From the NCBI GenBank assembly GCA_023512135.1, contig JAIMAG010000014.1, forward strand, positions 1 through 64,000: a DNA stretch of 64,000 nucleotides, written 5' to 3'. The notes beneath the pieces are model-generated. The model made no database searches. It was not told where the DNA came from and saw only the letters and a list, made by a program, of their open reading frames with translations. A program made the position numbers and the translations under genes. Origin of the DNA: Terriglobia bacterium. Lineage in GTDB: Bacteria; Acidobacteriota; Terriglobia; Acidiferrales; UBA7541. Position 1 is the first letter of the stretch; each line of letters opens with the position of its first letter. Of the stretch, positions 15,697 to 34,052 are shown piece after piece.

Positions 15697-16455
15697 CCGG
15701 ATTGCTGCCAGGTCTGCGACTGTCCACTGCCTGACCGGTGTGGACACCAGGGCCGGGTGTGTGCGTGTCCTTTCGCCCGGCCATAGAGAAGGGTGTGTTT
15801 CGCTAGGTCGGAACAGGCGCTCGTGCCCCCTCGTCCCTGCTCGTCGGTCAGTCCCACTCGAGTTGAGTTGCTTCGCCTGCCTCTCTCCTCGCTCCTGCCA
15901 GGCCCTCGCTGCTCGTGTCTTCGTTGCTGCGTGAATTCCACATATACGGACTGGACAAGCAGTGCTTCTTGAAGCTCCAATAGCCGCGGAGAATCTAGCC
16001 GGTTTCCCGGGACGCATCGGGCTAGTGGGGGTCGGATGGCTGAGAAAGTAATTTTCACGGAACTCCCCCGTCGGCTATGGTTCAATGGAGCAGTGCCGGA
16101 GTGAAGGTTTCCGTCACCTGTGTCCCCGAGATCCCCCGGGAACACAGTGGCAAGATCAGAGCCGTTGTCAGCCTGGTTCGACGGAATGGAGGGTGAAGAG
16201 GTTGAGGGATCAAGATGGCTGAGTTCTGCGGGATTTCGTCTTGCGTGGACGGTGGTTGTTTTGAATGTCTGCGCACGGCTTGCCCGCGGGGACAGGCGAT
16301 GGACCTGTCCGTTTTTTGAACTCGCCACCAGTCGAATCGTGCCCGTTGCCCTTGTTACCTTGGCGTTCGTGAACTCTTTCGGGCTGGGACGCCAGCCGCA
16401 CAGCCCGGAGCCGGAACCAAGGTCATCTAGAGTCCTTCTGGGAAGGGAACGAATC
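15697..16455 (+). other. Long leader/intergenic region before the TIG lipoprotein
   Basis: No supported gene in about 760 bases, although one frame stays open into the lipoprotein. It contains several inverted repeats: TGTCCAC (15721-15727) with GTGGACA (15740-15746), and GGCCGGG (15751-15757) with CCCGGCC (15776-15782), then a CT-rich stretch around 15820-15930. A terminator-like hairpin is listed separately. The amount of structure suggests a read-through end of the S9 gene plus a long 5' leader for the next gene. Confidence 0.5.
16290..16317 (+). terminator. Rho-independent terminator in the leader
   Basis: A perfect 7-base stem GGACAGG (16290-16296) / CCTGTCC (16304-16310) with a 7-base loop is followed by G and six T (16312-16317). 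It sits about 140 bases before the lipoprotein ATG on the same strand, so it either ends an upstream transcript or acts as an attenuator. Confidence 0.7.
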
Positions 16456-18909
16456 ATGAACAAGGCACTGAGGGCGGGCACAGTGGCGACTCCGCTGGGA
16501 GTGCTCATGAGTATCTTCGTTTCCATATTGCTTCTTGGGTGTATGGCGTTTACAGAAAACGTGCCCCCTGCCGACTCCGACACACCCGGTGATTCTGGAG
16601 GCAACCCGGCGCCGGCCATCAGCAGCATCGCTCCGACCGAGGGGACCACTGAGGGAGGCACGGTCGTCACCATCAACGGCGCCAATTTTCAGTCCGGAGC
16701 GCGAGTCAATTTTGGTTCATCGGCAGCGGCTAGTGTCAGTTTTGTCAGCGCCACCCAGCTCCGGGCCACCACGCGGCCGAGCACGGCGGGAACCGTCACC
16801 GTCGAGGTCATCAATCCGGATGGCAAGAAGGCCATCCATAACGGGTTCACTTTCAAATCGCCTCGCCCGCCGGCACCTTCGATCACCAGCATCTCCCCGA
16901 CTTCGGGAAGCACGGCCGGAGGCACAGTGGTCACCATCAATGGTGCAAATTTCCAGTCCGGAGCCAGAGTCTCCTTTGGGAATGTCGCAGCGACTTCGGT
17001 GAGTTTTGTCAGCTCTTCGCAACTGCGCGCTACGTCTCCGCCACATCCGGCCGGCAGTGTGCCGATTCAGGTCACCAACCCGGACGGCCAGTCGCAGTCC
17101 TACAACAGCTTTGCATATGTTTCTCCAACGACTTCCGATATAACAAGTGAATGCTCAGCCCGTCGTCCCGAATGGATTTTCTGTGATGACTTCGAAACTG
17201 ACCGACTTTTGCAGTACTTCGAGTACGTCAGTGATGGAGGAAGTTTTGTTCGTGTATCTGGAATTGGAGTGAATGGTAGCACAGGCATGCGCGCTCGGTT
17301 CGCAGTTGGCCAGGTGAGTGCTGGTAACTTGAAGCTTGCGTTTGGCCGCACCCCCGCTGCTTATTTTCGAGCCGTTGATTCGGGAACTGCAAATCATCGC
17401 GAGGTGTTTTGGCGTTTTTACTTGAGGACACAACCCGACTGGACCGGTGGCGGTGGCGACAAGCTCTCCCGGGCAATGATCCTTGCGACAGCAAATTGGG
17501 CGCAGGCAGCCATCGGCCACCTCTGGAGTGGTACCAGTCCGGGTCCAGATCAGGCATTTCTCTTTCTTGATCCCGCGTCCGGCACAGACGCGGCCGGGAA
17601 TCTGCGGACAACGACCTATAATGATTTTCCCAACCTGCGCTGGCTGGGCGCAGTGCAGGGAATTACTCCGATTTTCGATCCAAACCACACCGGGCAATGG
17701 CACTGCATTGAGGTTCGGATGCGGCTGAACGATCCGGGGCAGTCCAATGGCATCTTTGAATTCTGGATTAATGATAAGTTGGAGGCGCAGCGGGCGAACT
17801 TAAACTGGGTGGGTTCCTACCAGGAGTATGGGATCAATGCCATCTTCCTTGAAAACTACTGGAATGCTGGCTCACCGGTTTCTCAAGAACGTTACTTGGA
17901 TAACTTCGTGGTGAGCACTCAACGCATTGGATGTGGCTCATCCAACTCAGCTCCCGGAGATCCAACAGTTTCCGGAATTTCTCCCGCAAGTGGGTCGGTC
18001 AATGGGGGCACCTCGGTTACAATCAATGGTACAAACTTCCAGTCCGGGGCTGCGGTGTTGTTCGGCAACACCGCTGCAAGTAGCGTCACGTTCGTTAGCT
18101 CGACACAGCTCCGAGCCATCACACCGGCGCACACCGCCGGAACGGTGGATGTGCGCGTTACCAACCCTGATGGGAAATTCGCCATTCTGGAGGACGGTTT
18201 CAGTTTTTTGGTCGCCGAATCCGGTCAAGGCGTGCTGTTTCAGGATGACTTTGAGACTGGAGATTTCAGCAGGTACTTTGACAAGGCTTCCAATCAGATT
18301 TACACCAGCCCGGTTCACGGCGGTCAGTTTGCCTCGCGGGTGAATGCGCAGTTTTCCGGCTTTGGCAAGCTGATGGCTAACTTATCGCAGCCAGCCGATG
18401 ACCTCTGGTTCCGCGCCTTTGTCTATTTCCCTGTAGGTTTCACCGCACCTTGCTGCCCGTGGCAGTCGGGCACAAGCGCTGGCGTGCACCTGTGGCGTTA
18501 TTATAACGCATCGTCTGGTGCCCAACTTCACTTTGACTTTAATATTCCCACTGGTGCTTCAGGGATTCAATTGGCCTTCTTTTCTGCATTTGCACCGGAT
18601 ATAGCCCCGAGCGGCAATTGGGCACCCGCAGCCCCCGAAAATCAGGGTCGCTGGCAGTGCTGGGAGACTCGCGTCAAGCTGAACACGCCAGGGCAGAGCG
18701 ACGGCATCATCGAGTTCTGGGTAGATGGAGTGCGTCGTGCCAACTACACGGGCCTGAATCTGCGCGGCACAAGCTCGGAAGTCTTTCGCGTGATTGATGT
18801 GCAATCCAACATCGGCGGTGGCCCGCATCCTTCGACCTGGATACCCGAGTACTGGTGGGGTATTGACGATGTGAAGGTCTCTACGCAGCAGATCGGCTGT
18901 TTGCAATAA
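16456..18909 (+). CDS. TIG-domain lipoprotein with two lectin-like domains
   Basis: Exported lipoprotein of 817 residues. The N-terminus has a signal sequence with lipobox LLLGC (Cys about residue 32). Domain order: TIG/IPT 1 (about 52-132), TIG 2 (140-220), a concanavalin-like beta-sandwich (about 235-493, starting with CDDFETD), TIG 3 (502-585) and a second similar domain (about 594-817, starting QDDFETGDF). Both lectin-like domains end in a WGIDDVKVSTQ/ LDNFVVSTQ-type strand plus a final IGC. TIG repeats share GGTVVTINGANFQSGA. ATG 16456 with GGGAAGGGAA is preferred to the long upstream extension because the lipobox then lies at the right distance. It may bind or depolymerise a polysaccharide; no catalytic residues are evident. 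Confidence 0.85.
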   Translation: MNKALRAGTVATPLGVLMSIFVSILLLGCMAFTENVPPADSDTPGDSGGNPAPAISSIAPTEGTTEGGTVVTINGANFQSGARVNFGSSAAASVSFVSATQLRATTRPSTAGTVTVEVINPDGKKAIHNGFTFKSPRPPAPSITSISPTSGSTAGGTVVTINGANFQSGARVSFGNVAATSVSFVSSSQLRATSPPHPAGSVPIQVTNPDGQSQSYNSFAYVSPTTSDITSECSARRPEWIFCDDFETDRLLQYFEYVSDGGSFVRVSGIGVNGSTGMRARFAVGQVSAGNLKLAFGRTPAAYFRAVDSGTANHREVFWRFYLRTQPDWTGGGGDKLSRAMILATANWAQAAIGHLWSGTSPGPDQAFLFLDPASGTDAAGNLRTTTYNDFPNLRWLGAVQGITPIFDPNHTGQWHCIEVRMRLNDPGQSNGIFEFWINDKLEAQRANLNWVGSYQEYGINAIFLENYWNAGSPVSQERYLDNFVVSTQRIGCGSSNSAPGDPTVSGISPASGSVNGGTSVTINGTNFQSGAAVLFGNTAASSVTFVSSTQLRAITPAHTAGTVDVRVTNPDGKFAILEDGFSFLVAESGQGVLFQDDFETGDFSRYFDKASNQIYTSPVHGGQFASRVNAQFSGFGKLMANLSQPADDLWFRAFVYFPVGFTAPCCPWQSGTSAGVHLWRYYNASSGAQLHFDFNIPTGASGIQLAFFSAFAPDIAPSGNWAPAAPENQGRWQCWETRVKLNTPGQSDGIIEFWVDGVRRANYTGLNLRGTSSEVFRVIDVQSNIGGGPHPSTWIPEYWWGIDDVKVSTQQIGCLQ

Positions 18910-21126: not shown

Positions 21127-23076
21127 CTAGGGAACAACTTGCCGTTCAAACTGCAATCGAAAATGTAGAACCACGGTGTAGCGCTCCACTACCAAAGCAT
21201 ACTTCTCGGGTTGTTGGGAGACAAGATATACGGCGAATGCTTCGTTGGCGTACACGGGGGCCACCGGGTAGGGCACGTCCGCATACTGGACAACATACGG
21301 AAGATGGTGCTCGCGGGCGAGTTCGCTCAATTGTTCCCAGGAGAGTTTGCGGTAGGCAGCCGTGATGGCTTCGACATCCACATGACCGGGGAGATACGGC
21401 AGCCCGAGAGCGGCAATGCGACGGCGCCATTCCGGAGCGTAGGACGGGTAGACCCAGAAAATGTCGCCGTCCCGCCAGCTCACCCAGCAACTGCGTTGCG
21501 AGAAGACGCGAAAGCCGCCTGGAAACGGGGGCACGAGGAACACAGCATCCTTCGGTGTGTTCTCCCGGGCCCAGTTCTGCACCTCACGCCATGCAGCTTC
21601 CGCTGCGGCCGGCGGACGAACAGGACGCCGAACCATCGCCGGGTCCACCAACAGCATCGCAGAGCCAATCAGAACCACCCACGCGCCCAGCGTAGCGAGG
21701 GTTCGCGTCTGTATGGCCGCGGCACGCAAACGAGACGCGTACACTGCCGGTGCAGATGCCGCTGCGAAGAGGATCGTCAATTTACCCGGGTCCAGGCTGC
21801 CACGCCACCCGAGCACACCTGCTACTATGAAGGCAAAGAAAAACAATGCAATCCCCACCACGATGCGATTCCCGACCAGCCAGCGACAGACGCGGTCGAA
21901 CCGATGCCGGGAGTCCGCGGCCACCACTGCGGCAACGGTCAGGAAGGTGGGCAGGGCGCGACCCTCGGTCAACGGATAGAGCAACGCCGGCACGCTGACC
22001 AGCAAGGCTGCGGCCGGTGCCAGGTTCCACAGCGCTACAAGCAGGCGGAACCCGTAAATCGGCACGAGCACGAGGCCGAACAGGGTCAGAAAGGTGTCTG
22101 CACGCAGCAACTGGAGCAGAAGCAGCTTGGGCATGCGCAACCATTCACCCACCACCGTCCCGAGCAGGATGGGAACCAGCATGCTGGTGACTAAAAGTTC
22201 TAGACGGTGATCGCGAACAATTCCTCGCCGGACCGCCAGCACAACCACAGCCGTCATCCCCGCCAGAAAGAAGAGCCCGAGCAGCAGTTCATAGGCAGGT
22301 CGAGTACTCAGCACCAGGTGATAGGGATAGTGCGCCAGCAGCGCTTCGACGTACCCTTCGGGATACTCCGCCTGCAGAGCACGGCGTGCCAGAGCGAGCC
22401 AGCCCACTCCAAAGAGGAGCAAGAGGCTGACAGCGCCGATGATTTGGCGTCGGTGATGGCGCCAGTCGAACCACGCAAACGCAAGAAACGCGAAGCCCAA
22501 ATAGACGGCCAGCAACACATGGATGTGCAGCATGAGTCCCAGCAGAAGTGCTCCCCAAACCCAGCGACCCTCCAAAAGACAAATCGCTGCCCAGATGGCC
22601 AGCCCGCCGGCCAACGTGGTTTGGGTCATCAATCCGCCGAAAATGCCTCCTCCACCGCCAAACGGTGCAGCCATGGTGAGAAAAGGAGAAAGCGCGAGCC
22701 CCAGCAGAACAATCGCCAGAAAACGCGTATCGGGCAGATCTCGTGCGATCATCCTGGCCAGTCCCCAGAAAGCCAGGAAATGAGAAACAAAAAGCCCGAT
22801 CAGGAGGATCGTTTCGAGTTCGAACCAGGTGCACAGCCAGGCCACCGTGCGCCAGAACAACGAAGGGAAGCCTGCGAATGCTTCCCGCATCGGGTCCCCG
22901 GGAAACAAGGAAGGATCGCGCAGCCAGGCGACCATGGGAAGCTGGAATTCATGCTGCCCACTCCCATAATAGAAGGGATAAGCAGCTCGATGCAGATACG
23001 TGGCAAGCAGTCCCAGCAAGAGTTCGTGGCGGAGTTGAATGGTGTGTCTCGTCGAAGAAAGAGCGTCGGTCTGCAA
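21127..23076 (-). CDS. Large polytopic membrane protein of the polysaccharide locus
   Basis: A 649-residue protein with about a dozen hydrophobic helices and a soluble C-terminal part of roughly 150 residues. The architecture ([19 protein letters not shown] near the N-terminus, many Leu/Ala-rich helices, then a C-terminal domain with [15 protein letters not shown]) resembles uncharacterised membrane glycosyltransferase-like proteins of the DUF2029/DUF6798 kind. No catalytic motif is certain. The frame starts with TTG 23076; no ATG is available before the conserved N-terminal segment. It precedes two glycosyltransferases on the same strand and diverges from the acyltransferase. A role in polymer assembly is inferred from context. 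Confidence 0.75.
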
Positions 23077-23366: not shown

Positions 23367-24110
23367 ATGGCGGCCTCGATGATCCGTGTGCCCTGGCGAG
23401 TCCGATTGCTGTGGATGCGTTTTTGGATGTTCTTCTCCGGACGTAGATCGCTGGGGCGGCTGGCTGCTTCTCTCGCTGCATGGGCTTGCCCGCCGTACTA
23501 TGGTCGGATGACCCTTGCAGGGATGACGCCGCGCGGATTCATCTCGCCGAGCGCCACGATTTACCACGAAAAACTCAAACTGGGCCGCCATGTGGTGCTC
23601 GATGACGGCGTGTTGATCTACCAAGATACGGACGGCGGCGAAGTCGAGCTCGGCGATGGCGTCCATCTGTGGCGCCACACGGTCATTCAGACCGGTCAGG
23701 GAGGGCGAGTGAAGATTGGCAGCCGCACCAGTTTCCAAAGACACTGCCAGCTTTCCGCCTACCTGGCTGCCATCGAATTTGGCGAGCGCTGCCAGATTGC
23801 ACCCTTCTGTTGTTTCTTTCCGTATGACCACGGGGTGCAGCCGGGCAGACCCATCTTCGGTCAGCCACTGGAATCAAAAGGACCCATCGTCATCGGGAAT
23901 GACGTTTGGTTGGGCACCGGAGTCATTGTTCTCTCGAATGTGAAGATTGGCGACGGTGCGGTCATCGCTGCCGGTTCAGTGGTGACCATGGATATTCCCG
24001 CCGGCGCTATCGCCGCGGGGGTTCCGGCTCGCGTGATTCGCATGCGCAGCGAGCTGGATCGAAACGCCGCCGACCTGTCCTCGAACAAGCCCCCCCTCGA
24101 AGCCCAGTAA
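23367..24110 (+). CDS. Hexapeptide-repeat acyltransferase
   Basis: Left-handed beta-helix acyltransferase (WbbJ/LacA-like), 247 residues, transferring acetyl or a related acyl group to a sugar. Imperfect hexapeptide repeats run from about residue 60 to 225 ([57 protein letters not shown]), and the typical ending [15 protein letters not shown] is present. The catalytic His is probably in FPYDHGV. An N-terminal 50-residue stretch is basic and hydrophobic. ATG 23367 has AAGGAG 11 bases upstream; ATG 23379 is an alternative. It is the only plus-strand gene inside this polysaccharide block. Confidence 0.9.
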
Positions 24111-24148: not shown

Positions 24149-25519
24149 TTACTTTTCGAGAGCTTGAGGATGGCCGTGGGGAATCGCCTGCGGTCGGGCC
24201 GGGAAGAAGCGCGCGTCTTGTTCGGCCCGCAGCCGGTCGCAGAGCCGCCCGGGTGGAATTTCCACGTCGTCGTAGCTCAGCGCTTGATCTTTTGGGATAT
24301 CTCGTTTCAGCCGGCAGCCTTCGGCCAGGCCCATGGGCAGCAGCCGTTGTTGCTGCACCACGTCAGAATTTTCTGCGACCCCGTAAGTCATGTAGAAGCC
24401 GATGCCGTCCAGCACTTCACCGGCGCGCAAGTCTTTTTTGGCCACTGCGATGACGTCTACGCACGGTCCGCCCAGCGGGGCAATCGTGGCATCTCCGAAC
24501 AACACCGCGCGCGCCACCGTGAACGGCACTTCGAAATGGCACAGGTGGTAGGGCGTGTAGAAGCAGTACAGCGGCCCCGGTCCGAGCTTGTAGAGATTCA
24601 AGTAGTGTTTCTGCACCGGGTTGTCGTGGGTGCCGAGAACGAACACGCCCGGGCTGGGCTCGGCTCCGACAACGTAGTCCACGATGCCCGGCCCGTTCAG
24701 CAACGCGTCCTGCGGATACAACTCCACCACTTCGCGGATGTGGGTGCCCGAAGGCACCGTGGGGCCGAACATCCCGCGGCGGGCAACGCGCATGCCCGTG
24801 GCATTGGCCACAATCGCCTGCTCGAAAGAGATTTTCGTGCCGTCGGCGAACGAGGTGACCATGTGGGGTTTTTGTCCCCATTTTTTGGCAAATTCCTGCT
24901 GGGTTGTCGGGTTGCGGTACGGGTCGTGCAGACCCTTGATGTTGCCGCAGAGCACCGGCCGCACGCCGATGCCCTTCACGAAACGGTAGAGATTCAGGAT
25001 GACGCCGGGCTGGTCGCCATCGGCGTTCGTCAGTACCACGCCGGCCCGGTCAGCATACACTTTCAGGATTGGCCCGAGGGTGCCGTCGAGCTCTGCGTTC
25101 ATCAGCACCACGTGCTTGCCGAATTCGATTGCCCGCAGCACGACACCGGCAGCAAACTCGATGGAGCCGGTCACTTCGATGACGGCGTCGATGCCACCGG
25201 CTTCGGCTAGCAACAGGGCGTTGTCCGTGATGGCACAACGGCCGCGGGCGATGGCCTGCTCCAGTTGCGGCACACTGTCCACCGCAACCACGTCTTCGAT
25301 TCCCGCTTCGCTGTAGGCACGGCGCGCCTCTTCGATGCGCCGGTTCGAGATGGCTACTAGGCGCATCCCGCGCACCACGTTCGCCATCTGCAGGGCAATC
25401 CCGCGCGCCATAAAGCCCGCGCCCACCATTGCGACGCGGACCGGGTTTCCCTGCTGCTCACGTTTTTCGAGGGCTCGATCCACCAGGATCACGGAACCAT
25501 CCTCGGTCAGTTTTCTCAC
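24149..25519 (-). CDS. Homoserine dehydrogenase-like protein with SAF domain
   Basis: NAD(P)-binding protein of the COG4091 type, 456 residues. An N-terminal Rossmann domain has VAMVGAGFMARGIA (about 29-42) and ITDNALLLAEAGGIDAVIEVTGS; the middle has KGLHDPYRNPTTQQEFA and a GTKISFEQAIVANATG segment as in homoserine-dehydrogenase-like enzymes. The C-terminal ~90 residues form a SAF domain (DVIAVAKKDLRAGEVLDGIG, RDIPKDQALSYDDVEIP), shared with sialic acid synthase and antifreeze proteins. The start is GTG 25519, overlapping the stop of the upstream glycosyltransferase as GTGA. The 43 codons in frame above it overlap that gene. The reaction is unknown; within a nucleotide-sugar locus it could act on a modified sugar acid. 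Confidence 0.85.
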   Translation of the reverse strand: MRKLTEDGSVILVDRALEKREQQGNPVRVAMVGAGFMARGIALQMANVVRGMRLVAISNRRIEEARRAYSEAGIEDVVAVDSVPQLEQAIARGRCAITDNALLLAEAGGIDAVIEVTGSIEFAAGVVLRAIEFGKHVVLMNAELDGTLGPILKVYADRAGVVLTNADGDQPGVILNLYRFVKGIGVRPVLCGNIKGLHDPYRNPTTQQEFAKKWGQKPHMVTSFADGTKISFEQAIVANATGMRVARRGMFGPTVPSGTHIREVVELYPQDALLNGPGIVDYVVGAEPSPGVFVLGTHDNPVQKHYLNLYKLGPGPLYCFYTPYHLCHFEVPFTVARAVLFGDATIAPLGGPCVDVIAVAKKDLRAGEVLDGIGFYMTYGVAENSDVVQQQRLLPMGLAEGCRLKRDIPKDQALSYDDVEIPPGRLCDRLRAEQDARFFPARPQAIPHGHPQALEK

Positions 25520-26388
25520 ACTGGCGGTTTGCTGCGGAACTTGAGCATACCGATGGTATAGCCCATCTGCCAGCCGAAAGACCAGAACCAGTGGCAACGT
25601 CCGGTTCGAGTGCGCCAGTCCGGTATGCGAAGCAACAGTTGCAACCACCGCTCGACATACACGCGCCAGCGCCAGCGGTCCCGGTACCCTTTCGGACGGT
25701 AGCGTTTGTAGAGCCGAACGTTGTACTTCGCGTAGTTTCTTCCCTGCCGATACAAGCCCAGGGCGGTATCCCGGTAGCGGTAGTGCACCACGGCATCCGG
25801 GACCGACACCAGGGTGGCGCCGGCCAGTTGTGCACGGATGCAGAAATCTGCGTCCTCCAAGTAGGCGATGCTTTCGTCGAATCCCCCGATGCGTTCGTGC
25901 AGGGCGCGGCGCACCCCGAGGGTTGCACCTGCTGCGTGAGGTAGATGAGGAGGATACCAGAGTGGTACCTGTGCCCCGTCGGGCTGCGGGTTGGCGTGCA
26001 CGAGCCGCAGCCAGGGAGGGTTCAGCTTGTCAATATCCATCCGGCACGCGACCAGTTCGTGCGTTTCGAGTGCGCGGGTCATCGCCGGCAGCCAGTTGTC
26101 ACCGACTTCGTCGTCCGCGTCGCAGTGCAGCAACACGTCACCACGGGCGGCGGCGACACCCACATTTCTGGCAAAGCCCGGCGAGCGACGCTGGTACGCT
26201 TCCACAAGGCGAAGGTTGGGCAGGCGATTGCGGAATTGCTCGACGATGTCCCGCGAACGATCGGTGCTGCCATTGTCCGCGACGATGACTTCCCATTCCT
26301 CGTCGCAGCGCTGGCGCGCCAGCGCGGCGAGCTGCTGGCCAATGGTGCGCTCGGCGTTCCGGCAGGGGATGATCACACTGATGCGCAT
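25516..26388 (-). CDS. Glycosyltransferase family 2
   Basis: GT-A inverting glycosyltransferase of 290 residues: N-terminal RISVIIPCRNAERTIGQQL, EVIVADNGSTDRSRDIV and the metal site HCDADDEVGDNWL, with FDESIAYLEDADFCIRAQ as the catalytic acidic region. The C-terminus is basic and aromatic (GRCHWFWSFGWQMGYTIG), perhaps a membrane-associated tail. It lies 148 bases behind the epimerase-type gene rfbC and overlaps the SAF-domain gene by four bases, tying transferase and dehydrogenase synthesis together. Confidence 0.92.
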   Translation of the reverse strand: MRISVIIPCRNAERTIGQQLAALARQRCDEEWEVIVADNGSTDRSRDIVEQFRNRLPNLRLVEAYQRRSPGFARNVGVAAARGDVLLHCDADDEVGDNWLPAMTRALETHELVACRMDIDKLNPPWLRLVHANPQPDGAQVPLWYPPHLPHAAGATLGVRRALHERIGGFDESIAYLEDADFCIRAQLAGATLVSVPDAVVHYRYRDTALGLYRQGRNYAKYNVRLYKRYRPKGYRDRWRWRVYVERWLQLLLRIPDWRTRTGRCHWFWSFGWQMGYTIGMLKFRSKPPV

Positions 26389-26536: not shown

Positions 26537-27079
26537 TCATGGCTTCTCCGGGGCATAGTCAGGCCAGCTCTGGTCTTTCGTTGAAATGATCCGCTTTTCG
26601 ACGGCGGGCCAGGCGATCCCGAACCGCGGGTCGTTCCAGCGCACGCCGCGCTCGGCCTGCGGGTGATAAAACTCCGAAACGTGGTAGAAGACTTCCGTAT
26701 CGTCCTCCAGGGTCTGGAACCCGTGGGCAAACCCCCTAGGCACATAGAGCATCTGCCGGTTCGCCGCGGTCAGTTCTACCCCGACCCACTGCAGGTAGGT
26801 CGGGGAGTCTGGACGGAGATCGATGATAACGTCGAAGATGCTGCCGCGAATACAGCGCACCAGCTTGACTTCTTCGTGCGGAGGCGCTTGATAGTGCATT
26901 CCGCGCAGGGTGCCTTTGTACCGATTGTAGGAAAGATTGCTCTGCACGATGCGGGTTTCCAGGCCGTGCTCGGCAAATTCCTTCTGGCACCAGGCGCGCG
27001 CGAAAAAGCCGCGTTCGTCTTCGCGCGGCTCGAGGTCGATTCGGTAGGCGCCTGCAAGTTTTAGTTGGTGGAAGATCAA
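26537..27079 (-). CDS. rfbC: dTDP-4-dehydrorhamnose 3,5-epimerase-like protein
   Basis: RmlC-family cupin epimerase acting on a 4-keto-6-deoxy nucleotide sugar, 180 residues. The catalytic His62 is in GTLRGMHYQ, with Lys72 and Asp87 following and the YHVSEFYHPQAERGVRWNDP region matching the C-terminal active-site strand. The start TTG 27079 has AGCAGGAGC at good distance and gives the usual N-terminus IFHQLKLAGAY; a TTG at 27136 has poor spacing. Neighbours are an SDR epimerase and a glucose-1-phosphate cytidylyltransferase, so the substrate is more likely CDP- than dTDP-linked. Confidence 0.88.
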   Translation of the reverse strand: MIFHQLKLAGAYRIDLEPREDERGFFARAWCQKEFAEHGLETRIVQSNLSYNRYKGTLRGMHYQAPPHEEVKLVRCIRGSIFDVIIDLRPDSPTYLQWVGVELTAANRQMLYVPRGFAHGFQTLEDDTEVFYHVSEFYHPQAERGVRWNDPRFGIAWPAVEKRIISTKDQSWPDYAPEKP

Positions 27080-27166: not shown

Positions 27167-28273
27167 CTAGCTGCGCACCGGAACCGGCGCGTTGACGGAC
27201 GTTGCTGCTTCCCTACGGTGTGCTCGGGCACGGTTGGTCCACTCCAGTTGTTCGTTCAGCAGGCCCTGTCGGCGCAGCTCTTCCAGAACTTTCAACCGCA
27301 TGAAAGCAGAGTTGCGGAAATCCGGGTCCCGGAAGCGCATAGCTTCCAGACCCTGTCGCAGCTCTTGCACCGTCGTTTCCAGGTCCATTTGAGGCTGATG
27401 GTCGGGGGCAAGTCGCCGGAAAAGGCTGAAGTCTACGCGATAGGAACGCTTGTCCGGCTGCGCATCGGGATGCATCGAAATTTGGACGCCGGGAATCACG
27501 CGGGCGACCGCCTCCGCCAGTTCCCGAATTTGATAGTTCCATTCATCCGAGCCGGCATTGACCACCAGGTAGTCTTCGCCGGTGGTCCGGTCGAGCGCCC
27601 AGTCGAGTGCCCGGGCCATATCCTTCACATTGATCAGAGGGCGCCAAGGTGTGCCATCGCTGAGGATGGTGATGCGGTTCGTGGCCACGGCGCTGGCCAC
27701 AAAGTCATTCAGCACCAGGTCCAGACGCAGCCGCTCGCTCATCCCGCAAGCCGTGGCGAACCGAAGACAGGTGACGCGGAACCTGCTATCGGCCAGCGGC
27801 GCTAGGTCGCGCTCGGCAGCAACTTTCGATTGGGCATACGCCGTCAACGGATTCAGCGACGACGACTCCGTGCGCGCACCCTCCTCCGCGAATCCGTACA
27901 CGCTGCAACTGGAAGCAAACACAAACGACCGCACACCCGCCTGCTTGGCCAGTGTCGCCAGGCGTACGGTTGCGCGATGGTTCACCTCCTGGGTCAATTC
28001 CTCAAACGCCTTGCCCATCGGGTCGTTGGAGATGGCCGCCAGATGGATGATCCCGTCCACACCCTCGAGAATTTTTTCCGGAACACTGCGCACATCGGCA
28101 AAGTACTGGAGGTCGGTGCGACACTCCGGGAGGATGGCGGCTCGAGTCAGGCAGTGGCTGAAGTAGCCCATGTCATAGCCGATCAGCGTAGCCTGGGGCC
28201 GCGACTCGCGCAGGTGCCGCAGGACCCAGGGCCCCACGTATCCCATGTTGCCGGTGATCAGAATAGTTTTCAT
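27167..28273 (-). CDS. NAD-dependent epimerase/dehydratase (extended SDR)
   Basis: Nucleotide-sugar-modifying short-chain dehydrogenase, 368 residues. The N-terminal TILITGNMGYVG gives the GxxGxxG Rossmann motif; HLAAIS, the SSCSVYG active-site Ser, and YAQSK (Tyr and Lys of the catalytic triad) follow; then RFATACGMSERLRLDLVLNDFV and WRPLINVKDMARA are typical of UDP-glucose-epimerase-like enzymes. The C-terminal ~60 residues beyond the domain are charged and not recognised. ATG 28273 starts the conserved strand; upstream codons are not conserved-looking. Adjacent to rfbF (29-base gap), it may act directly on a CDP-sugar. Confidence 0.9.
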   Translation of the reverse strand: MKTILITGNMGYVGPWVLRHLRESRPQATLIGYDMGYFSHCLTRAAILPECRTDLQYFADVRSVPEKILEGVDGIIHLAAISNDPMGKAFEELTQEVNHRATVRLATLAKQAGVRSFVFASSCSVYGFAEEGARTESSSLNPLTAYAQSKVAAERDLAPLADSRFRVTCLRFATACGMSERLRLDLVLNDFVASAVATNRITILSDGTPWRPLINVKDMARALDWALDRTTGEDYLVVNAGSDEWNYQIRELAEAVARVIPGVQISMHPDAQPDKRSYRVDFSLFRRLAPDHQPQMDLETTVQELRQGLEAMRFRDPDFRNSAFMRLKVLEELRRQGLLNEQLEWTNRARAHRREAATSVNAPVPVRS

Positions 28274-28302: not shown

Positions 28303-29076
28303 CTACCAGATTTTCCAGGGTGCGTTGCCGGATTCCCAAAGCTTCTCGAGTACCATTTTGTCCCGCAGTGTGTCCATCGGCTGCCAGAACCCGCGGTGGC
28401 GATAGGCGGCAAGCTGTCCCTGTTTCGCCAGGGTTTCCAAGGGCTCGCGCTCCCAGACTGTGGAATCGTCAGCGATGTAATCCATCACCTGCGGCTCGAG
28501 CACAAAAAATCCACCGTTGATCCAGCCGCCTTCCCCATCTGGTTTCTCGTGGAACGTGCTGACCTTGTTTTCTTCCCGGCCTAGGCTGATGGCCCCGAAG
28601 CGTCCCGGGGGTTGTACGGCGGTCATGGTGGCCAGTGTTTTCTGGGCGCGGTGAAACGCAATCAACTCGGTCAAATTGATGTCGGCGACACCGTCGCCGT
28701 AGGTCATACAGAACGTTTCGTTGCCCAGGTAGCGCGCCACGCGCTTCAGTCGACCGCCAGTCATGGTGTTGTCGCCGGTATCCACCAGAGTGACCCGCCA
28801 GGGCTCCACGCCGTTCATATGGACTTCCTGACGGTGCTGGCGGAGATCGAACGTCACATCGGACATGCGCAGCGCATAGTTGGCAAAGAATTCTTTGATC
28901 AGGTGGCCCTTGTATCCGAGACAGATCACGAAATCATTGATCCCATGCGCCGAATAGATCTTCATGATGTGCCAGAGAATCGGACGGCCACCGATCTCCA
29001 CCATCGGCTTTGGACGCACCGCACTTTCCTCGCTGATGCGCGTTCCGTATCCGCCCGCCAGAATGACCGCCTTCAT
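28303..29076 (-). CDS. rfbF: Glucose-1-phosphate cytidylyltransferase
   Basis: Makes CDP-glucose from CTP and glucose 1-phosphate, the first step to CDP-linked 3,6-dideoxyhexoses and branched sugars. The 257 residues match RfbF throughout: [13 protein letters not shown] with [22 protein letters not shown] at the N-terminus, [12 protein letters not shown], the [16 protein letters not shown] motif and the end [14 protein letters not shown] 29076 is preceded by GAGGAG. Normally rfbG (CDP-glucose 4,6-dehydratase) follows; here an epimerase-like SDR takes its place. Confidence 0.95.
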
Positions 29077-29133: not shown

Positions 29134-30471
29134 TCACTGCACCCGCTGACCGGCCGGGGCTTCTGCTTCCTGAGGTTCCCCCAGATATTCTACCTGCCAG
29201 TCGAGCATGGGGCGCAGCACACCGGGCATGTTCCCGCCGTAGTCGCCACGCGCAGAACTTCCATCGGGAGCATCCACGATTTGAAAGGCGACTAGATATT
29301 TCTCATGACAGTGGCAGATGTACGGAGATTCTGTAATCAGTGCGCCACCGCAGAGAATCGTGCCCTCGGCAAAGAAATTTCCAGGGATGTGAACGCGGCT
29401 GTAGTACCGTCCCGCCGGGCGTGGTTTCCGGCGCCAGCGCGGGTCGCGCTCAATTGTTACAAAGAGCGTAACCCCCTCTTCATTTTCGAAGCCGAGCAAC
29501 GGATAGACAACGGTCCCGGACTGCAGAACATCGAATTCCACCTCGAGGTAAAACGGTCGCCGAATGTCCAGGGCACTGGCCAGTTCGCCGTGCTCGTCTT
29601 TGACCCGCACGGCGCGCAAGCGAACTTTTTCGTTCCCGGGTGCTTGGTTTATGTCTGGCCACTCCCGCAGGCAGGTCAGGCCCAATCCGGAGTGGAGATA
29701 ATTGCTGACCACCTGGCGCGCGGGACCGTCTTCGTACACCTTCCCTTCGTGAAGCAGGATGGCACGATCACACAACCGCGTGACCGCCTGCATGTTGTGT
29801 GAGACAAAGATAACTGTGCGGCCTTCCTGACCGACTTCCTGCATGCGGTTCATGCATTTGCGCTGGAAGCCTGCATCTCCCACTGCCAGGACTTCATCCA
29901 CCAGCAGAATTTCTGGCTCCAGGTGTGCCGCCACGGAAAACGCCAGCCGCAGGTACATCCCGCTGGAGTAATGTTTCACCGGCGTGTCAATGAACTTTTC
30001 GACTTCGGCAAATTCGACGATCTGGTCGAATTTTCTGCGGATCTCGCTTTTTTGCATCCCGAGGATCGCTCCATTCAAGAAAATATTTTCGCGACCCGTC
30101 AACTCGGGGTGAAACCCTGTGCCCACCTCCAGCAGCGAGCCCACGCGGCCATAGACGCACCCGATGCCGGTTGTGGGCTCGGTGATGCGCGAGAGAATCT
30201 TCAGCAGTGTGCTTTTTCCGGCTCCGTTGCGTCCGATCAGGCCGACGACTTCACCGTGCTTGATCTCCAGCGAAACATCCTTCAGCGCCCAGAACCGCGC
30301 TCGCAGATCTGCGGCTCCGGCCGCCGTCCCGCGGAACATCTGGCGCATCCGGCGCGCCGGAGCGGTGCACGCCTCGATGATCGTTTCCCGCAGCGTGCGG
30401 TAGGGCGCTTTCACATGCCCGATGTGGTACATCTTGCCCAGATTTTCCAGTTGGATCGCCAGATTGCCCAT
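29134..30471 (-). CDS. wzt: Polysaccharide ABC exporter ATPase with carbohydrate-binding domain
   Basis: Nucleotide-binding subunit of an O-antigen/capsule exporter, 445 residues, at the inner face of the membrane. Walker A is GRNGAGKST (80-88), the signature is the Wzt form YSSGMYLRL and Walker B is EILLVDE. The C-terminal ~170 residues after about residue 275 match the Wzt C-terminal lectin-like domain ([19 protein letters not shown]), which in ABC-type O-antigen systems reads a modified chain end. ATG 30471 lies 7 bases after the wzm stop. The presence of this domain suggests that chain-end modification couples to export. Confidence 0.95.
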
Positions 30472-30478
30472 GGTTCAC

Positions 30479-31402
30479 CTAGACTAGGTCCGCAAAAACT
30501 TTCTCCACGCGCCGGAAATAGTACATACCGCCCACCAGCAGCAGGAATGCTGCCAGCATAGAAACAGCCAGAACAGCCAGTTCGGGACGCGGTGTACCCA
30601 AAACCGCCCAGCGAAAACCCTCCACAACTCCCACCATCGGATTCAAACCATAGAGCGCACGCAACTGCTCCGGCACCATCGTCGAGGGATACACGATGGG
30701 AGAGCCGAACATCCAGAGCTGGGTGATGAACGGAATCGTGTACCGCACGTCGCGAAACATCACGTTCATCGCAGACATCCAGTACGTCACGCCGAGACAC
30801 GTCACCAGAGCCAGAAGGATAAACACCGGGGCCCAGATCAGGTTCACCGAAGGGACTTGCTGCTGCCAGAACATCATCCCGATCAGCAGCAGAAACGCCA
30901 GCAGAAAGTCCACCAATCCGGAAAGGACGGTCGCCGTGGGCAGCACCAGGCGCGGGAAGTACACCTTCTTGACCAGCTCCGGGTTGGTGATCAGGCTGTT
31001 GGCCCCCTGCGACAGGCCATTGGCAAAAAACATCCACAGCACCAGGCCAGCATAACTGAACAGGGAGTAGGGCACGCCGCCGGACGGGATCTTGGCCAGC
31101 CGTCCAAAAAAAATGGTGAAGATCACCATGGCCAGCAACGGCTGCAGGATGGCCCATGCGGCACCCAGCACGGTTTGCTTGTACCGCACCAGGATGTCCC
31201 GCCAGGTAAGGAAATAGAGCAATTCGCGGTATTCCCATACTTCTGCTAGCTTCAGGGCAGACCAACCCTTTGAAGGCCGCAACAAGGTCATGCGGCGAAG
31301 GGAAGTTCTTTCAGGCTGGAGGCTTTCTGCTGCAGCGGCAGAAGAAAGCTCCCGGCCCATCGCTGTTTGGGCCATTTGCCCCGGTCTCCGGGAAAGTTCC
31401 AT
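30479..31402 (-). CDS. wzm: Polysaccharide ABC exporter permease
   Basis: Membrane subunit of the Wzm/Wzt exporter, 307 residues with six hydrophobic helices in the ABC-2 arrangement. Family features include WRDILVRYKQTVLGAAWAILQPL, then NPELVKKVYFPRLVLP, and a C-terminal GLNPMVGVVEGFRWAVLG. The ~50-residue N-terminus is Ala/Ser-rich and soluble. ATG 31402 has GAGGGAAC upstream. It is the promoter-proximal gene of the minus-strand run wzm-wzt-rfbF-SDR-rfbC-GT2-SAF, indicating one operon for making and exporting a polymer. Confidence 0.95.
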   Translation of the reverse strand: MELSRRPGQMAQTAMGRELSSAAAAESLQPERTSLRRMTLLRPSKGWSALKLAEVWEYRELLYFLTWRDILVRYKQTVLGAAWAILQPLLAMVIFTIFFGRLAKIPSGGVPYSLFSYAGLVLWMFFANGLSQGANSLITNPELVKKVYFPRLVLPTATVLSGLVDFLLAFLLLIGMMFWQQQVPSVNLIWAPVFILLALVTCLGVTYWMSAMNVMFRDVRYTIPFITQLWMFGSPIVYPSTMVPEQLRALYGLNPMVGVVEGFRWAVLGTPRPELAVLAVSMLAAFLLLVGGMYYFRRVEKVFADLV

Positions 31403-32975: not shown

Positions 32976-34052
32976 ATGCAGGCAACGAGTGCAGAGCCGA
33001 GGATGGCAACTTCAGCGCAGCTCGAAATTATCCGCGTGGAACAACCCGGCGTCGCACACGCCTGGGAGGAATTTGTTCAGCGCGAAGCGTCCGCCACCAG
33101 CTACCATCGCTGGGGTTGGAAACAGGTGATGGAGCGAGCCTTCGGTTGGCCGACCTTTTATCTGCTGGCACGCCAGGGAGATCAGGTGACCGGAGTTCTT
33201 CCGCTCGTCTGGCAAAAGAGCCTGCTCTTCGGAAGTTTCCTGACCTCACTCCCGTTTCTGAACGGAGGCGGGATTGTTGCGCGCGACCCTGCTGTGGCAC
33301 GCTCGCTGCTGCAGGCAGCCATCCGCCTGGCGGACGAGCTCGGCGTTCAGCATCTCGAACTGCGCCAGCGTACCCAGCCGGACTGGGACCTGCCCACGCG
33401 AACCCACAAGGTGGCTTTGCTCTGTGAGCTGGAACCCGACGCAGACCGGCGGTTCGCCTCGCTGCCCCACAAGGTGCGGACCGACATTCGCAAATCCATG
33501 TCCTATGGACTCACGGCTGAATTCGGCGGCCGGGAGCTGCTGGAAGCGTTCTATGGCGTGTTCAGCCGGAACATGCGCGACCTGGGCACACCGGTTTACA
33601 GCCGCAGCTTCTTCGAACAGATTCTGGCAGCCTTTCCGCAAGAAAGCTTCATCTGCGTGGTCCGGCACAATGGCGCGCCCATCGCCGGCTCCTTTCTCAC
33701 GGCCTTCCGGGACACCGTGGAGGCCGGCTGGAGCGCTTCCCTCTACGCCTACTTGCACATGAAGCCGAACATGTTCCTGTACTGGAGCATTCTGGCGGAG
33801 ATGGGCCGTCGCGGCTATCGCTGGTTCGATTTCGGCCGCTCGACGGTCGGCTCTGGTACCTATCGGTTCAAAAAGCAGTGGGGAACGATGGAACAGCCGC
33901 TTTATTGGTCGTACTGGACACGCGCGGGAGAACCGCTGCCCGCACTCAGCCCGGAAAATCCCCGTTACCGGCTGGCAATTCGCCTGTGGCAGAAATTGCC
34001 GCTGGCGGTCACGAACTGCCTCGGGCCCCGCATCGTTCGCTGCTTGCCTTGA
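32976..34052 (+). CDS. FemAB-like (PEP-CTERM/exopolysaccharide associated) protein
   Basis: GNAT-fold FemAB-type protein, 358 residues, resembling the group often encoded with exosortase/PEP-CTERM exopolysaccharide loci (TIGR03019-like). Recognisable parts are SYHRWGWKQVMERAFG near the N-terminus, the LPFLNGGGIVA segment, PHKVRTDIRKSMSYGL, and the end RWFDFGRSTVGSGTYRFKKQWG. The family relates to enzymes that transfer amino acids from aminoacyl-tRNA to peptidoglycan, but substrate here is unknown. ATG 32976 has no clear ribosome-binding site; ATG 33003 is an alternative. No exosortase or PEP-CTERM protein is in this window. Confidence 0.85.
   Translation: MQATSAEPRMATSAQLEIIRVEQPGVAHAWEEFVQREASATSYHRWGWKQVMERAFGWPTFYLLARQGDQVTGVLPLVWQKSLLFGSFLTSLPFLNGGGIVARDPAVARSLLQAAIRLADELGVQHLELRQRTQPDWDLPTRTHKVALLCELEPDADRRFASLPHKVRTDIRKSMSYGLTAEFGGRELLEAFYGVFSRNMRDLGTPVYSRSFFEQILAAFPQESFICVVRHNGAPIAGSFLTAFRDTVEAGWSASLYAYLHMKPNMFLYWSILAEMGRRGYRWFDFGRSTVGSGTYRFKKQWGTMEQPLYWSYWTRAGEPLPALSPENPRYRLAIRLWQKLPLAVTNCLGPRIVRCLP

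Follow-up and report, generated by a model that had tools for sequence, protein, structure and literature searches.

A DLO1-type relative of DXR-II as the probable last, reductive enzyme of a CDP-4-ketosugar cassette

What does an NAD(P)-binding protein with a SAF domain do at the end of a polysaccharide operon? The question is raised by a gene in a 64,000-nucleotide stretch of a Terriglobia bacterium genome (contig JAIMAG010000014.1, positions 1 to 64,000; this whole stretch is called the window below). The gene is the last of a leftward run on the minus strand that encodes a Wzm-like polysaccharide export permease (30479..31402), a Wzt-like export ATPase (29134..30471; both assigned by Pfam/NCBIfam profiles), the glucose-1-phosphate cytidylyltransferase RfbF (28303..29076), an SDR (27167..28273), an RmlC-type nucleotide-4-ketosugar 3,5-epimerase (26537..27079), a family 2 glycosyltransferase (GT2; 25516..26388), and finally the DLO1-type DRL/DXR-II-like oxidoreductase studied here (24149..25492). 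A hexapeptide acyltransferase gene on the opposite strand converges on it and ends at 24110. Elsewhere in the window, a large plus-strand protein (16120-18909) combines repeated TIG domains with two copies of polysaccharide-lyase-like domains, a multi-spanning DUF6798 membrane protein (21127-23076) has a close relative beside DLO1 only in a genome of the same genus, and a FemAB family XrtA/PEP-CTERM-associated protein (32976-34052; TIGR03019, 375 bits) suggests an exosortase-linked polysaccharide locus. The first-pass annotation had described the oxidoreductase as homoserine-dehydrogenase-like, and had proposed from its apparent translational coupling to the GT2 gene that it makes or alters the transferred sugar.

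On the minus strand, the open reading frame begins with a GTG at 25519 and ends at 24149 (456 residues), and the reported four-base overlap with the GT2 gene (GTGA, 25516..25519) is geometrically correct, as this GTG occupies 25519-25517 and the GT2 stop codon TGA 25518-25516. However, the overlapping GTG is probably not the start codon. Residue 10 is encoded by another GTG (25492) with a GAGG eight bases upstream, and its alignment column contains methionine in 102 of 112 other sequences; no Shine-Dalgarno-like sequence was seen before the GTG at 25519. In the same-genus genome G001, whose protein is 93% identical, the spacing is 28 instead of 27 bases, which puts the overlapping GTG in a different reading frame, the GGAGG-GTG arrangement being retained. 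Based on the methionine column, the upstream GAGG, and the out-of-frame GTG in G001, the gene most likely starts at 25492, leaving 23 bases between the GT2 stop and this start codon. Close relatives of the window GT2 occur near DLO1 at only two other loci, and the GT2 is thus not a conserved partner. With this start and this distribution, translational coupling has become doubtful.

Pfam detects three domains on the minus strand, namely the NAD(P)-binding Rossmann domain PF03447 (residues 33-143; 25091..25423), the DRL catalytic domain PF21135 (DRL_cat; residues 168-331; 24527..25018; E 4.8e-56, 189.7 bits at a cut-off of 27), and the SAF domain PF08666 (residues 357-420; 24260..24451). DRL_cat lies between the Rossmann and SAF domains; a NeuB barrel, as in SAF proteins of the sialic-acid synthase/antifreeze kind, was not found by Pfam. 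The only close solved relative is the Brucella abortus DRL (PDB 3UPL/3UPY), which was matched with an E-value of 1e-70 (profile E 1e-133), as compared with 1e-4 for the nearest solved homoserine dehydrogenase. An AlphaFold2 model, built from 50 relatives with plasmid-derived rows left out (pLDDT 94.3, pTM 0.92), superimposes on 3UPY over 420 residues with a Z-score of 50.3, an rmsd of 1.6 Å, and 35% identity, and the other structural matches, some of them homoserine dehydrogenases and others DXR-I, remain at Z 17-19. The designation as homoserine-dehydrogenase-like therefore holds for the NAD domain but not for the rest of the protein; the best NCBIfam match, PRK06349, reaches 31 bits at a cut-off of 205. 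DRL is itself DXR-II, which forms methylerythritol phosphate by a rearrangement followed by a reduction. That the protein belongs to this superfamily, with a reductoisomerase as its characterized member, had been missed by the first-pass annotation.

The DRL/DXR-II superfamily has been divided into DXR-II and two clades without assigned function, DLO1 and DLO2 (Carretero-Paulet et al., 2013, PMC3847144). Position 229 is Thr in DXR-II and Leu, Ile, or Val in DLO1, and DLO1 was present in about 36 of 1489 strains, with Nostoc, Deinococcus, Rhodothermus, Coxiella, and Streptomyces griseus among those listed (PMC3847144). As the window protein has Ile230 at this position, and all 108 relatives have Ile, Leu, or Val, it belongs to DLO1 by position 229. 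In a tree of 70 proteins, whose bootstrap was not fully settled and in which some rows are long, all 58 DLO1 rows fall into a single clade (100/100). The DXR-II-like rows make up a group of their own (99/92), which joins the DLO1 clade apart from the remaining relatives (99/97). Membership of the window protein in the DLO1 clade is near certain. It also agrees with the published DLO1 family in that no DXR-II role was found for that family (PMC3847144). The literature that we searched, with partial coverage, contained no assignment of a reaction to any enzyme of the clade, and the 2013 study gave DLO1 neither a function nor a gene context, to which we now attach the CDP-sugar cassette described below. 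Phage relatives were limited to Listeria-type matches at 33% identity. Among more distant superfamily members, three proteins of the same class as the window genome (L027, L028, and L029; 33-36% identity) have Thr instead of Lys at DRL position 191, and one genome (G056) contains two distant copies, one of them with a TGA inside the matched stretch.

The active site was compared over 108 DLO1 sequences using the Brucella DRL numbering, in which Lys195, Leu197, Lys229, Ile230, and Glu233 of the window protein correspond to Lys191, Lys193, Lys228, Thr229, and Glu232, respectively. Asp143, Lys191, Asp225, Lys228, Glu232, Asn238, and His323 are identical in all 108 sequences. In contrast, Lys193 is replaced by Leu in 104 of 108, Thr229 by Ile, Leu, or Val in every sequence, and Arg320 mostly by Thr. 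The fosmidomycin-binding residues of DXR-II are Lys191, Lys193, and Thr229 (PMC3847144), and DLO1 thus keeps the core without two of these three phosphonate-holding side chains. DLO1 resembles DXR-II in its whole-length fold, its three domains, and the equivalents of Lys191, Asp143, Lys228, Glu232, and Asn238, and differs in the replaced Lys193, Thr229, and Arg320, in its separate clade, and in a nucleotide-sugar gene context in place of an isoprenoid need. Since the core is invariant and Lys193 and Thr229 are replaced, we infer that DLO1 has retained DXR-type chemistry but has exchanged a small sugar phosphate for another kind of substrate. The first-pass annotation had named a closest characterised relative with an amino-acid pathway function and the same key residues as evidence against its sugar proposal; that relative turns out to act in isoprenoid metabolism, and the phosphate-anchoring Lys193 and Thr229 are not shared with it (PMC3847144).

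The main evidence comes from the gene context of DLO1. A scan of 84,980 species genomes yielded at least 80 DLO1 loci, and the matches listed, which share 67-75% identity, come from Cyanobacteriota, Bacteroidota, Pseudomonadota, Chloroflexota, Planctomycetota, Nitrospirota, Verrucomicrobiota, Gemmatimonadota, Myxococcota, and Rhodothermota; plasmid records added loci of Deinococcota and alphaproteobacteria, and more distant loci were obtained from relatives of the window genome and from an even draw of 369 gammaproteobacteria, 22 of which were positive. An rmlC-type gene accompanies DLO1 in 105 of 108 loci, on the same strand in 103 of them and with a median gap of 72 bases; rfbF is present in 93 loci and the SDR gene in 89, some of the absences being due to contig ends. 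The gene rmlD occurs once, and rmlA and rmlB not at all. The commonest orders are rfbF-lhgO-SDR-rmlC-DLO1 (41 loci) and rfbF-SDR-rmlC-DLO1 (25 loci), and the rfbF-SDR-rmlC cassette accompanies DLO1 in at least 11 named phyla. It was not found near superfamily members of less than 38% identity, of which L027-L029 lack any cassette gene and L020 and L021 adjoin a sugar kinase and a TPP-dependent dehydrogenase. DLO1 is, with very high probability, a member of a CDP-4-ketosugar pathway, and we hold with good confidence that it catalyzes the terminal reductive step. The idea that the enzyme makes or alters a transferred sugar has thereby gained good support for an activated, probably CDP-linked sugar from the cassette, though not from the GT2 coupling by which it had been argued. 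As DLO1 is patchy, being present in only 9 of 396 genomes of the window's own phylum, and yet 70-75% identical between phyla, its distribution points to spread by horizontal transfer. Some gammaproteobacteria and some relatives of the window genome have a second cassette subtype, in which the cytidylyltransferase is divergent, often adjoins an LmbE-like deacetylase, and scores below the cut-off for RfbF, at about 222-226 bits in those scanned (L023 at 10434, L025 at 4955, L026 at 16065, L148 at 8306, and L149 at 10512).

The partner enzymes narrow down the substrate. RfbF of the window is unambiguous (TIGR02623, 463 bits, cut-off 300), and the nucleotide carrier is therefore expected to be CDP. 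The epimerase scores above the cut-off of TIGR01221 (inferred start TTG 27079). The SDR (inferred start ATG 28273) has an SSCSVYG sequence in place of the dehydratase TDE/TDK motif, and all cassette SDR subtypes share S-S-C-[S/I]-x-Y-G where 4,6-dehydratases have T-D-E or T-D-K. An assignment of the SDR as CDP-glucose 4,6-dehydratase was rejected, as every cassette SDR is of the SSC type and TDK/SDK types are found only in RfbG. The top PDB match of both the window SDR and a cyanobacterial SDR is 6VO6/6VO8, titled putative sugar-nucleotide epimerase/dehydratase. We take 6VO6 to be the C4-dehydrogenase Cj1427, which agrees with the structure paper on Cj1427 that PMC10680097 cites. This enzyme oxidizes C4 of a GDP-heptose by a ping-pong mechanism and discharges its tightly held NADH via 2-oxoglutarate, forming L-2-hydroxyglutarate (PMC10680097). 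A Cj1427-like enzyme would thus explain why L-2-hydroxyglutarate oxidase (LhgO) resides inside these cassettes, as L-2-hydroxyglutarate has to be recycled. LhgO is present in 43 of 89 cassettes with the SDR and absent from all 12 in which RfbG or a UXS-like SDR occurs (p 0.001 by Fisher's test, the rows not being independent). It scores above the NCBIfam cut-off in loci of Deinococcus, cyanobacteria, gammaproteobacteria, Rhodothermaceae, and Pontibacter, and examples from several phyla are L013 (5157-6392) and L057 (4928-6142), as well as L038, L050, L096, L150, and L152; two weaker members, in L032 and L037, remain below it. The window locus has no LhgO, and elsewhere in the genome there is one weak LhgO-like gene (250 bits, cut-off 299).

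Variants of the cassette indicate how much the substrate may differ. In nine loci, the SDR is replaced by the CDP-glucose 4,6-dehydratase RfbG, and these exchanges occur at separate supported places in the tree (L099 among Anabaena, L100 in Pontibacter, and L141/L143 beside L140), which suggests that DLO1 acts on 4-ketosugars whatever C6 carries. In three gammaproteobacteria (L144, L146, and L147), a UDP-glucose-dehydrogenase-like protein (Ugd) and a UDP-glucuronate-decarboxylase-like (UXS-like) SDR take the place of the SDR, and this combination of rfbF, UXS-like SDR, UDP-glucose-dehydrogenase-like, rmlC, and DLO1 genes could provide a CDP-4-ketopentose and an apiose-like route. What all variants have in common is a CDP-4-ketosugar that is offered to RmlC and DLO1.

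DXR cuts its ketose between C3 and C4, joins C4 to C2, and reduces the expelled C3 aldehyde. The same steps on a nucleotide-bound 4-ketohexose would lead to dihydrostreptose from a 6-deoxy substrate and to dihydrohydroxystreptose from one that has kept its 6-hydroxyl group. The best explanation that we can offer, and one that we consider moderately probable, is therefore that DLO1 acts as a DXR-type reductoisomerase at the end of the CDP-sugar cassette, contracting the ring to a branched furanose. Family, fold, residue conservation, cassette, and the absence of RmlD are read from the sequences, and from them we infer substrate, ring contraction, product, and cofactor as follows. RfbF would form CDP-glucose; the SDR would oxidize C4 with retention of the 6-hydroxyl group, passing NADH to 2-oxoglutarate to give L-2-hydroxyglutarate, which LhgO would recycle in many organisms; and RmlC would epimerize C3 and C5. 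DLO1 would then cut C2-C3 and join C2 to C4 in a ketol rearrangement, by which the six-membered ring would become five-membered and C3 would be expelled as a formyl branch, and would reduce this branch with NAD(P)H. This would yield a branched sugar of the CDP-3-C-hydroxymethyl-lyxose type (dihydrohydroxystreptose type), which glycosyltransferases of the locus may add to a polysaccharide that is exported by Wzm/Wzt. A precedent is UDP-apiose/UDP-xylose synthase, which uses a C2-C3 retro-aldol cleavage, a ring-contracting aldol step, and an aldehyde reduction, but is an SDR of unrelated fold with all steps in one active site, and streptose and dihydrostreptose have been proposed to arise in the same way (PMC5324594).

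A further argument for ring contraction comes from organisms that contain such sugars. The lipopolysaccharide of Coxiella contains dihydrohydroxystreptose. As of 2022, no enzyme had been assigned to the ring contraction that leads to this sugar or to streptose; for dihydrohydroxystreptose, a C4 oxidase and a distinct synthase were predicted, the synthase being left open with an RmlD paralogue expected, and StrM and CBU1838 were identified as RmlC-type double epimerases without detectable ring rearrangement (Cross et al., 2022, PMC9095892). The streptose/dihydrohydroxystreptose route (StrDEML; CBU1834, CBU1837, and CBU1838) thus resembles the DLO1 cassette in C4 oxidation and an RmlC-type 3,5-epimerase, followed by a missing ring-contracting reductase, and differs in its dTDP carrier, in the RmlD paralogue expected for the last step, and in a cleavage at C3-C4 where we propose C2-C3 (PMC9095892). 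DLO1, in turn, occurs with a C4-oxidizing enzyme and a 3,5-epimerase and without RmlD, as expected of a dihydro(hydroxy)streptose synthase. Despite the rarity of DLO1 among the strains surveyed, both organisms named for these sugars, Coxiella and the streptose producer S. griseus (PMC9095892), are on the list of DLO1-containing species, with NP_820815 and YP_001827426, respectively (PMC3847144). Fourteen Coxiella proteins are given by accession and by locus tag in PMC10740251, and as the ordered lists pair NP_820808 with CBU_1829, accession-number arithmetic places the Coxiella DLO1 at about CBU_1836, adjoining SDR CBU_1837 and RmlC CBU_1838; CBU_1834 is RmlA (PMC9095892, PMC3539893). No C4-ketoreductase candidate was found in the Coxiella proteome (PMC3539893). 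In S. griseus, dihydrostreptose is usually assigned to the RmlD-like StrL, and the CDP genes strP, strQ, and strX to N-methyl-L-glucosamine (PMC12498427); StrQ is named as CDP-glucose synthase in the title of a paper by Beyer et al. (1998), to which PMC5953339 refers. As StrL may make dihydrostreptose and strP, strQ, and strX have this other assignment, the S. griseus link is weaker than the Coxiella link, and DLO1 could serve N-methyl-L-glucosamine there. YP_001827426 would be SGR_5914, beside strV and thus strU, a numbering that we do not use as evidence. The gene strV is SGR_5915 (PMC6804068).

The main rival, a serious one that we hold to be less probable than ring contraction, is that DLO1 takes the place of RmlD as an NAD(P)H-dependent C4-ketoreductase without any rearrangement, giving a CDP-L-hexose of the L-mannose/L-talose kind (a 6-hydroxy rhamnose), or a CDP-6-deoxy-L-hexose where RfbG is present. 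The cassette fits this reaction equally and cannot separate it from ring contraction: it is an Rml pathway with CDP for dTDP and without RmlD, and the order of C4-dehydrogenase, C3/C5-epimerase, and C4-reductase is proven for Cj1427-Cj1430 of Campylobacter, a pathway that shares the 2-oxoglutarate-recycled C4-dehydrogenase and differs in using GDP-heptose and an ordinary C4-reductase as the last enzyme (PMC10680097). The pentose variant also favors simple reduction, as contraction of a 4-ketopentose would erase the C3 stereochemistry set by RmlC, and a CDP-L-mannose intermediate would be logical for the N-methyl-L-glucosamine assigned to StrP, StrQ, and StrX (PMC12498427). However, RmlD-type reductases are abundant and would suffice, yet a DRL-type enzyme is found in nearly every cassette, with the DXR-II active-site core retained, and the sugars reported for Coxiella are dihydrohydroxystreptose and virenose, with no L-mannose-type sugar (PMC5843353, PMC9095892). 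The retained DXR-II core, the avoidance of RmlD, and the Coxiella link thus lead us to favor ring contraction. A different redox or aldol reaction of the 4-ketosugar, such as formation of an alternative branch or C2-C3 cleavage to a shorter sugar, would also suit a cassette that fixes the pathway and not the reaction, and that tolerates three 4-ketosugar makers, but it has no precedent in the superfamily and the final step lacks only a reductase, which makes it improbable.

Functions outside sugar metabolism fare worse. A role of DLO1 as the homoserine dehydrogenase of the cell, or in some other step of amino-acid metabolism, would account for the resemblance of its NAD domain and for the lack of PF00742 in the window genome and in G001 despite a threonine-synthase-like gene. 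This is very improbable, as four other relatives that carry DLO1 possess a normal homoserine dehydrogenase as well, both enzymes are absent from many relatives, the catalytic domain is DRL_cat with no match to Homoserine_dh (PF00742), and the gene lies in a polysaccharide operon and encodes the SAF-DRL architecture of 3UPL. Synthesis of methylerythritol phosphate for isoprenoids would follow from DXR-II being the closest solved relative, but has the least probability of all: Lys193, Thr229, and Arg320 of DXR-II are replaced, DLO1 stays apart from the DXR-II-like rows in the tree, a DXR mutant was complemented by none of four DLO1/DLO2 representatives (PMC3847144), and the window genome has no need of DXR-II since it contains DXR-I.

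In conclusion, DLO1 is a concrete candidate for the ring-contracting step, with a structural template and an abundant four-gene cassette. We tentatively extend this to the possibility that DLO1 is a streptose/dihydrohydroxystreptose synthase, a relative of an isoprenoid enzyme that was recruited to nucleotide sugars and spread by transfer over at least 11 phyla, served by three interchangeable makers of 4-ketosugars (hexose, 6-deoxyhexose, and pentose) and producing a family of branched furanoses largely overlooked by surface chemistry. If ring contraction is correct, ketol rearrangement coupled to reduction would serve isoprenoids and surface sugars in sister enzymes, and new names could be due for some proteins that are now annotated as SAF domain-containing protein, Gfo/Idh/MocA, or homoserine dehydrogenase. 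Even if DLO1 is a plain C4-ketoreductase, the clade gains a pathway. With ring contraction, branched furanoses would be expected among the polysaccharide sugars of Pontibacter, Deinococcus, many cyanobacteria, and others.
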